64,000 bases of DNA from assembly GCA_024180945.1 (NCBI GenBank), contig JAKSGN010000005.1:930001-994000 (forward strand). Direction: 5' to 3'. A program made the translations under genes and the position numbers. The first letter of the stretch is position 1, and every line of letters begins with the position of its first letter. Under the pieces are notes generated by a model. It was not told the origin of the DNA. It did no database searches and saw nothing but the letters and a program-made list of their open reading frames with translations. Shown here one piece after another: positions 45,601 through 47,617 of the stretch. The DNA comes from Macrophomina tecta. Taxonomy: Eukaryota; Ascomycota; Dothideomycetes; Botryosphaeriales; Botryosphaeriaceae.

Positions 45601-47617
45601 ATACGCATACTACTTGCCATATCTCAAGACGGCAAATGCGGAAGAACTCGCCTACACGTTCCTTAGGATAATCCTCGGCAACCACGGGTTACCAGAAGAG
45701 CTCGTGTCAGACAGAGATCGGCTGTTCACATCCCGATTCTGGCAGACGCTCACCCGCCAGCTTGGAGCAAAGCACAAGCTCTCGACCACGGCACATCCAC
45801 AAACAGATGGACAGACAGAACGAACGAATCAGACACTAGAACAGTACTTACGCTGCTACCTCAATTACGCACAAGACAATTGGGTCGAGCTGCTACCGCT
45901 CGCACAATTCGCGTACAACAGCTCAAAAGCGTCAGCTACGCAAGAATCCCCGTTCTACGCCAATTACGGTTACGAGCCCACAGCTTACAAAGAGCCCATA
46001 CCAAGCGAATCCCTAGCCCAAAAAGGAATCCTCAAAGCAGACCAACTGAAGGCACTCCACGAACAACTGCACCTGGACCTCGAGTTCGTAGCCCTACAAA
46101 TGGGTAAATACTACAACAGACGGCACCAGGAGGCACCGAAGCTAAAGGGGGGGGACAAAGTTTACCTCCTCAGAAAAAACATCAAGACAAAACGGCCAAA
46201 CAACAAATTGGACTTTAAGAAAATCGGACCGTTCGAAATTGAAGAACAGATTGGAAAGGTCAATTTCCGCCTTAAATTGCCTGACACCATGCGGATACAC
46301 CCCATATTTCACGTCTCACTCCTCGAACCGGCACCAGAAAACGCCACGCCATTACGCCAAACGGAAGAAATGCTACCGGAAAATCCAGACGCCGACGAAA
46401 ACATAGACTGGGACGTAGAACAAGTCCTGGACAGCGGCTACATCAACGGTCAATTCCGATACCTCCTCAAATGGAAAGGAGGCTGGGACAATACCTGGGA
46501 ACCACCGGAACTCTGCGACTGTCAAGAGCTCATTGATGAGTTCCATCGCCGAAACCCAGATCGACCAACACCGCCGACTCGTCGTATACGAAGGACCCAA
46601 AATCGAAATCAACAAACGGAGACAACCGCGCCTGATCAACCAGACCGGAATCCTCGGGAGGCGCAGAACCCGAACCAACGCCAGGAGATCCAACAGACTG
46701 GGACGACCCCACAACGTTATCAGCTGAGGCATCGCCACGTAAACGCTTTGGCGATCGTTCCTCCTTGGCATTTTCAGGGTCAGAGGCATCCCCAGCCTCC
46801 AACGCTTCCAACTCCCCAAGCACATCGATCGCGTCCGACTTACGCTGCAACATCAGGGCAGCACGACGCTCAAGTAACTCCTGCTGTTTTTTGGCACGAG
46901 AAAGACCGGAGGCCGCCTTTTGAAGCTGATCCTCGAAAGCAGCACGTTCCGAGCGCGCCTTGTCTAAGGCACGACGAAGACGCTCAACTAGAGGAAGGGT
47001 TAGCAGACTGGCGAGACCACCAAAGAAGAACTAACAATCGGAGTCCTCAAGGCCGCTGGCATCACAACCAGTGCGCCCGGCACGACAACATTCGCCACAA
47101 CGAGAAAAACCCAAGGCCACCCGGCACACCACCTCAGGCTCCTCCGCCTTTCGCTGGGCGTTCAGAAGCAAACACTGCGAACAAGGAACAGGCATCGCGA
47201 CACCTAGTAAATCAATCTTCGCACCTAGAGACTCACGCTCAGTCTTCTGTGAATCGCGCTTTCGTTTCGGAGGCATGGTGGAAGGCTTACAGTGAAGAAA
47301 GAAAACAAGAAAACGAAGAAAGCCCAAGATATAGACGGACGGACAAATCTTCGGGCCGAAGATCCTTAAGAGGGGGGATAGTGTTACGAACCCCAGAGGA
47401 CAAGGGCTTTATGACCCCACGGGCGGAAGGCCCGCACGGGAAAAGGCACCGCAGGAACCCACAGGGACGGCAGAGCCGCACCACCAGCACGCCCGCACGG
47501 GAAAACCAGCCGCAAGGGAAGACGGCGCGTACGGGCCTGGGCAAGGCAGCAATGGAAGCCCGCACGGGAGCGACGCCCACGCGGCACAGCAAGACCACGA
47601 GAACACAGACCAGGTGA
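42639..47617 (+). CDS. pol: Element A Pol (protease, RT, RNase H, integrase, chromodomain), -1 frame relative to Gag
   Basis: Protease [11 protein letters not shown] near 42790. RT with [11 protein letters not shown] and YLDDILIYS (near 44140). RNase [17 protein letters not shown] (near 44575). Integrase zinc region HGHQGTD...[10 protein letters not shown] and catalytic D, D, E in LDFITDL, SDRDRLF and [15 protein letters not shown] (45300-45850). The chromodomain [15 protein letters not shown]...[15 protein letters not shown] is near 46410-46550. Such chromodomains guide integration to particular histone marks. The frame then stays open for about 350 more codons over the antisense gene and 78 codons into the 3' LTR. 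Whether that tail is translated is unclear. No Met is needed, as expression is expected through frameshifting. Confidence 0.92.
46530..47276 (-). CDS. Element A antisense spliced gene: Cys-cluster (Zn2Cys6-like) coiled-coil protein
   Basis: Exon 1 (47276-47036) encodes [10 protein letters not shown]... An intron of 48 nt (47035-46988; GTTAGT, CTAAC, CTCTAG) removes an in-frame TAG. Exon 2 (46987-46530) completes 232 aa. Features: basic NLS-like start; cysteines PCSQC, then one C, then RCGEC and GC in the order C-x2-C-x15-C-x8-C-x2-C-x6-C; a helical, heptad-like segment ([36 protein letters not shown]); [12 protein letters not shown]; a Ser/Gly/Pro-rich stretch; and the end [19 protein letters not shown]. 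The second half of the cysteine pattern fits Zn2Cys6 clusters; the first spacing is longer. The gene starts about 100 bp from the 3' LTR and ends inside the chromodomain codons. B, R1 and R2 share its architecture. The role is unknown; a nuclear regulator is inferred. Confidence 0.78.

Follow-up and report, generated by a model that had tools for sequence, protein, structure and literature searches.

An antisense gene under purifying selection in chromodomain-bearing Ty3/Gypsy retrotransposons of Macrophomina tecta

Two retrotransposons and their antisense genes

The window, a stretch of 64,000 nucleotides of Macrophomina tecta DNA (contig C5, positions 930001-994000, of a 54.1 Mb genome in 37 contigs), contains two complete Ty3/Gypsy LTR retrotransposons on the forward strand, each delimited by an LTR pair and a target duplication. 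Element A (39833..48153) has LTRs of 772 bp each at 39833-40604 and 47382-48153, which are 100% identical, and a 5-bp target duplication, GCCCT. Element B (51920..60138) has 100% identical LTRs of 743 bp each at 51920-52662 and 59396-60138 and the 5-bp target duplication GGCCT. According to a Pfam scan, pol of element A comprises RT, RNase H, integrase and chromodomain; a polypurine tract lies at 47371..47378 on the plus strand, 5' of the 3' LTR. The gag gave a match to the Pfam WCCH motif (E 0.0015), under the Pfam cut-off.

An earlier note on this DNA had placed a two-exon gene antisense to pol, in the interval between chromodomain and 3' LTR, and this gene was found in both A and B. The antisense gene of A occupies 46530..47276 on the minus strand and encodes 232 aa. 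Exon 1 (47036..47276) carries the basic N-terminus and six cysteines; the phase 1 intron (46988..47035, 48 nt) has the signals GTTAGT, GCTAAC and CTAG; exon 2 (46530..46987), the last part of which overlaps the end of pol, encodes a likely coiled coil, the basic patch SPKRLRG, a Ser/Pro/Gly linker and an acidic-aromatic tail. The antisense gene of B (58556..59294, minus strand, 229 aa) is built from exon 1 at 59075..59294, a phase 1 intron of 49 nt at 59026..59074 (GTATGT, CTAG) and exon 2 at 58556..59025. Splice sites were inferred from sequence and assigned by eye from the consensus. As the note had stated, the intron of A holds an in-frame TAG that would be removed by this splicing, indels between A and B preserve the reading frame of the antisense gene, and the two proteins have their last 25 residues identical and an 11-residue stretch in common.

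The pol frame is open across the whole antisense-gene region in A and B. The sense strand is poor in T, so that long open frames come cheaply on both strands. Opposite gag, element A also has an open frame of 159 codons (41921-42400, minus strand), which may be an effect of the T-poor sense strand alone.

Two decayed copies of the antisense gene, R1 (24855..25600) and R2 (35867..36647), lie on the plus strand. Both have several stops in the homologous frames and the donor ATAAGT (at 25108 and 36108, respectively), which agrees with the note in treating them as dead. As to its attribution of their death to RIP, the copies themselves show the stops and the lost donors, and RIP-type changes were seen in decayed copies elsewhere in the genome. 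The end of R1 coincides with the start of a stretch (25600-25900) that is 100% identical to the B-type LTR and is perhaps a solo or nested B LTR truncating the R1 antisense gene.

Comparison with a third element, C, from the same genome revealed a patchwork of identity. A and C are 99-100% identical over approximately 40633-43433, which covers most of gag, but pol sets them apart. Between B and C, identity is 94-99% from approximately 44433 to 46633, in late pol. Elements A, B and C are thus mosaics, and template switching or gene conversion is their likely origin. Towards its 5' end (approximately 46833-47233), the antisense gene has only 54-65% identity across the three, which marks the antisense cassette as a fast or exchanged module. 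The late gag-early pol region (41633-43433) is almost as divergent between A and B (59-77%) as the antisense gene.

The palindrome and the candidate antisense promoter

In element A, a 17-bp palindrome with a CGG-N1-CCG core, ATCTTCGGGCCGAAGAT, lies 5' of the antisense start at 47347..47363 and is a candidate binding site. Between it and the start codon is the TATA-like box of the antisense gene (CTATATCT, 47327..47334, minus strand). Element B has the same 17-bp palindrome at 59361..59377 and a TATA-like box at 59341-59348. A, B and C each carry the perfect palindrome between polypurine tract and start codon, and in each of them it is the sole palindrome there with arms of at least 8 and a loop of at most 1. 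CGG-N-CCG is the type of triplet site used by Zn2Cys6 proteins.

The exact palindrome occurs 164 times in the 54.1 Mb, and the reversed control does not occur. Among 100 listed palindrome places, 89 sit 5' of a copy of the antisense gene, decayed copies included, and 11 are unassigned. For 49 of the 100, an A/B/C-type exon-2 match follows at no more than 900 bp on the 3' side, two recorded pairs being oddly oriented. Forty of the 51 others stand at most 200 bp 5' of a D/E-type exon-1 match, a count to be read with the fact that families D and E were themselves found via the palindrome search. From the other side, 17 of 57 D/E-type exon-1 matches (contigs C1-C29) are without an exact palindrome within 200 bp.

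The spacing of these elements is nearly fixed: the distance from palindrome to TATA-like box is 13, 13, 13, 14 and 13 bp in A-E, and that from palindrome to start codon is 65-72 bp. F1 and F2, described below, have the palindrome and TATTTC at the place of the TATA-like box. R1 retains an exact palindrome (24771-24787) and that of R2 is altered; since CpA and TpG are both absent from the palindrome, RIP should hardly affect it, and its survival in dead copies means little. None of the three elements A, B and C has an exact palindrome in its LTRs, which leaves an action on the sense promoter unsupported.

Copies and further families in the genome

Identical intact copies of the antisense gene number three for A, five for B and five for C. 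A genome search with A exon 2, in which the best 150 of 286 candidates were scored, returned at least 150 matches at E ≤ 0.001, and 13 of those listed were stop-free; only a small minority of the copies is intact. Compared with whichever intact allele is nearest, the decayed copies showed 5505 C-to-T or G-to-A changes, 557 reverse transitions and 320 transversions (47 non-identical rows, some places counted twice), and this excess is the pattern that RIP would give.

Fifty-one listed palindrome places had no A/B/C-type gene. All five of those that were fetched carry another antisense gene of the same build, partly intact and partly decayed. Families D and E came from this search, and a further type, F1 and F2, was picked up by protein similarity to E. 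The D and E proteins are 35-41% identical to those of A-C and 46% identical to each other; their pol is 67% identical to that of A over about 385-400 residues. The intron has phase 1, a length of 46-49 nt and the same place in A, B, C, D, E, F1 and F2. Exon 1 is identical in 5 places for D and in 13 places for E, which suggests recent activity of the latter. The loci of families D, E and F, each of which has an antisense zinc-cluster-like gene, were recorded as L083-L091 on contigs C1, C6, C10, C3, C18, C36 and C5.

Two protein searches returned 10 and 23 homologous proteins, 24 in all. Those with a named source were five from Macrophomina phaseolina (MPH_13331, MPH_12903, MPH_13277, MPH_01427 and MPH_08540), four from Thermoascus crustaceus and one from Aplosporella prunicola (K452DRAFT_294741). 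Thermoascus belongs to the Eurotiomycetes, Macrophomina and Aplosporella to the Dothideomycetes. In the Thermoascus protein VTN00DRAFT_4595, the exon junction is at the same residue. The genes of these homologues are presumed to lie antisense in elements as well.

Both features of an antisense additional ORF of the aORF-3R type are present here: in A and B the gene lies opposite gag-pol in the pol-3' LTR interval, and it occurs in many copies per family with a conserved protein.

Selection on the antisense frame

Several comparisons tested whether the antisense codons are under purifying selection. When the same substitutions were randomly re-dealt over exon 1 and the first half of exon 2, a dN/dS at or below the observed value arose in 3, 0 and 0 of 5000 trials (A/B, A/C and B/C), and a stop-free outcome in only 80, 90 and 126 of 5000. 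Chance thus does not account for the gene, cheap as open frames are here. When A, B and C were aligned without regard to codons, all ten exonic gaps were multiples of three, although these are pairwise readings that share events and hence not ten independent events; the intron gaps were of 1 nt. Under a protein-guided alignment, variable columns by antisense codon position numbered 65, 53 and 98 for exon 1 and the first half of exon 2 (p = 5e-4). Codon-blind counts were weaker, with only A/C exon 1 significant among nine single tests (p = 0.0023). The pol flank served as positive control, and there sense third positions were far more variable (33 versus 10 and 4 for A/B).

The earlier note had named dN/dS of the antisense frame against the overlapping sense frame as a check, and the antisense values proved to be the lower. 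In eight of nine segment comparisons, no other of the six frames had so low a ratio, and in the ninth there was a tie. For the first half of exon 2, antisense dN/dS was 0.46, 0.60 and 0.30 against 1.24, 1.06 and 1.80 in the pol frame; over the last part, the values were 0.29, 0.48 and 0.53 against 0.63, 0.77 and 0.86.

The cleanest test was provided by F1 and F2, the closest intact pair. Their differences fall at antisense positions 1, 2 and 3 in the numbers 14, 8 and 54, so that third positions account for 54 of 76 exonic differences (pooled p = 2e-11). In exon 1, 22 of 208 sites differ, 18 of them at third positions; in the fetched part of exon 2, 54 of 328 differ, 36 of them at third positions. 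The antisense dN/dS is 0.03 and 0.08, and 17 of 46 intron sites differ. One sense frame also gives a low ratio (0.13 and 0.15), as it should, given that it shares its third positions with the antisense frame; it has no stops in exon 1 and five in exon 2. In exon 2, the sense frame that is free of stops has a dN/dS of 3.50.

In the first part of D/E exon 2, variable sites at the three antisense positions (21, 18 and 32) follow the trend of A-C. In the last part, antisense position 2 is the most variable (13, 23 and 14, with 29 sites out of phase), a pattern which indicates that the end of pol is probably constrained there too. Taken together, these comparisons strongly support the view that the antisense gene is conserved, spliced and kept by purifying selection.

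The encoded protein

The predicted proteins begin with basic N-termini (MPPKRKR, MAGVKRSR, MSKRKRD); Lys and Arg make up 4-7 of the first 15 residues in A, B, C, E and F1 and only 2 in D. Cysteine spacings were counted from the listed cysteine positions. The pattern is C-x2-C-x15-C-x8-C-x2-C-x7-C in A, with spacings of x2, x11, x9, x2, x7 in B, x2, x11, x8, x2, x7 in C, x2, x6, x9, x2, x7 in D and x2, x6, x8, x2, x7 in E; F1 is the same as E with one extra cysteine. The last spacing, given as x6 in the earlier note, is x7 by these positions.

The cysteines are followed by a charged stretch that reads by eye as coiled-coil-like, then by a basic patch (KRLRG, KRPRH) and a Ser/Pro/Gly linker. Among the last 35 residues of A-E, 5-7 are acidic, 0-1 are basic and 10-13 are hydrophobic, and this acidic-aromatic tail is kept despite divergence. 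Three homologues (P0010, P0014 and P0016) have a variant coiled-coil-like stretch, RLRKQQRFLxxRRSRMIREG, as does family D (RLRKQRRFLQERRSKMIRQG).

The Zn2Cys6 domain (PF00172) has the spacing C-x2-C-x6-C-x5-12-C-x2-C-x6-8-C. Families D, E and F fit it, whereas the first loop of A, B and C is too long (x11-x15). The description of the protein as Zn2Cys6-like is therefore supported by spacing in D, E and F; against it stand the longer first loop of A, B and C and the Pfam cut-off, which was reached by no match. The Pfam scan gave no match in A and one sub-threshold match in B; Zn_clus was under the cut-off in D (E 0.61, 10.7 bits versus 21) and did not match E, and a scan of nine family members gave no Zn_clus match. 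The intact A-E loci were absent among the 149 PF00172 matches listed by a genome search in which the best 150 of 323 candidates were scored.

Profile comparisons were made with seven Zn_clus domains of the genome. A-C with their relatives scored no better than the best shuffles, and A-E pooled scored at or below them. The D+E profile beat 60 of 60 full shuffles, and 5 of 60 cysteine-keeping shuffles reached the same score. By eye, and unlike the seven domains, the antisense proteins have no basic run in the first half. The structure prediction of A exon 1 was moderate.

Discussion

Antisense genes in this position have precedents. The earlier note knew of none in fungal chromoviruses, a statement overturned by brtn, which the Boty-like elements of Botrytis cinerea carry in antisense (Zhao et al. 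2011, Virology 417:248; cited by PMC8365987, PMC4227169 and PMC7264820). As outlined in two of these articles (PMC4227169, PMC7264820), it too is an antisense gene in the pol-3' LTR interval of a fungal Ty3/Gypsy element with a CHROMO domain. It is the closest precedent, compared here by description only; the homologue searches returned no match named BRTN or from Botrytis. The antisense ORFs of plant elements (Grande gene23, RIRE2, Retand) are described as similar in place, strand, presence in most copies and presumed nuclear or DNA-binding role (PMC11963269, PMC7264820). The gene studied here differs from them in being compact, spliced and overlapping the end of pol, and its protein is a different one from TRP28 of Retand: with E values up to 1 admitted, the Pfam scan matched PF04195 (TRP28) in neither A nor B. 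Retand is itself described as a non-chromovirus (PMC11963269).

The closest functional analogy is HBZ of HTLV-1, likewise a spliced antisense gene, whose product is described as a nuclear regulator (PMC10186651); for the present gene, the regulatory role is a proposal. HBZ is a bZIP protein expressed from the 3' LTR, whereas the fungal gene encodes a cysteine cluster and has a TATA-like box that lies outside the LTR, ahead of the start codon; no bZIP domain appeared when A and B were scanned with Pfam. Fungal Zn2Cys6 regulators (PF00172; GAL4) are matched in cysteine order, in spacing in D, E and F, in the coiled coil and acidic tail (by reading) and in a CGG-type palindrome nearby; the proteins depart from them in staying under the Pfam cut-off and in the x11-x15 first loop of A, B and C. 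The function of retrotransposon antisense ORFs is described as unknown (PMC7264820), and a search of titles and abstract openings, covering few subscription papers, found no report of a fungal element with an antisense gene for a cysteine-cluster protein.

The antisense gene family is real and selected, its transcript is almost certainly spliced, and its product is probably a regulator. The reading that we favour, and consider reasonably probable, is an element-borne transcription regulator with its own promoter and CGG-N-CCG site. The gene would be accessory equipment of one clade of Ty3/Gypsy elements with chromodomains in fungi. Transcription of the antisense strand would start from a short promoter (palindrome, TATA-like box and short leader) just inside the 3' LTR, and the transcript, spliced once, would yield a nuclear protein of about 230-250 residues. 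Its cysteines would bind zinc, the coiled coil would make dimers, and the acidic-aromatic tail would contact the transcription machinery. The dimer may bind the CGG-N-CCG palindrome, which precedes the TATA-like box by 13-14 bp, and the protein would thus control its own promoter and, via the shared LTR neighbourhood or host genes, element expression.

Could the conserved signal come from something other than an antisense protein? It is extremely improbable that a C-terminal extension of pol is what is conserved, with the antisense frame as its shadow. The pol frame is indeed open over the whole region in A and B, and variation in the last part of D/E exon 2 is greatest at antisense position 2, which is the third position of pol in A, so that this stretch is probably coding on both strands. 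Yet pol-frame dN/dS exceeds antisense dN/dS in both parts of exon 2, the stop-free sense frame of F1/F2 exon 2 is far above the antisense ratio, and the 1-nt difference in intron length shifts the sense frame of A relative to B and C. The extension is contradicted by these observations, except for the overlap at the last part of exon 2. Very little probability is likewise left to the view that the antisense RNA matters, as a source of dsRNA or small RNA, and the protein is incidental: antisense RNA of LTR elements is discussed as a source of silencing RNA (PMC7264820), but the codon pattern contradicts this role here, with purifying selection on antisense codons, in-frame indels and a faster intron.

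A selected antisense protein might instead be a nuclear accessory factor, acting in import of the preintegration complex, in RNA export or as a shield against silencing or RIP, rather than a DNA-binding transcription regulator. Such roles would suit the lysine- and arginine-rich N-termini of A, B, C, E and F1 and the missing significant Zn_clus match in A, B and C. A counter-silencing protein would also pay in a strongly RIP-active genome, and import and RNA transport are among the roles discussed for plant antisense ORF proteins (PMC7264820). We nevertheless regard this as unlikely in view of the Zn2Cys6 spacing in D, E and F, the retention of the acidic-aromatic tail and the near-fixed distance of the CGG-N-CCG palindrome to the antisense start. 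The palindrome could itself have another role, as an RNA hairpin or as a DNA element for plus-strand priming or for 3' end formation of the sense RNA. It lies near the polypurine tract, and its survival in dead copies is uninformative given that RIP mostly spares it; its constant distances to the TATA-like box and the start codon in A-E and its resemblance to a Zn2Cys6 triplet site make this somewhat unlikely.

Beyond the regulator itself, a broader scheme can be put forward tentatively, at rather less than even confidence. Many fungal chromodomain retroelements would carry a self-contained antisense cassette consisting of a zinc-cluster protein, its own promoter and a cognate CGG-N-CCG operator, which strong selection would have maintained in more than one class of fungi. 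The protein would set the balance of sense and antisense expression via its own antisense promoter, while the cassette would outpace pol and be exchanged between elements by recombination.

Antisense accessory genes were already known from plant LTR elements and deltaretroviruses. Macrophomina tecta offers several intact families in one RIP-active genome, in which an antisense gene with measured purifying selection is accompanied by a compact candidate promoter and a candidate binding site. With such a promoter and one obvious candidate site, the question of function is directly testable. The results also suggest that some 'hypothetical proteins' in fungal annotations are genes of transposable elements. 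If the proposed reading is true, fungal retroelements would possess a retrovirus-like accessory gene system.
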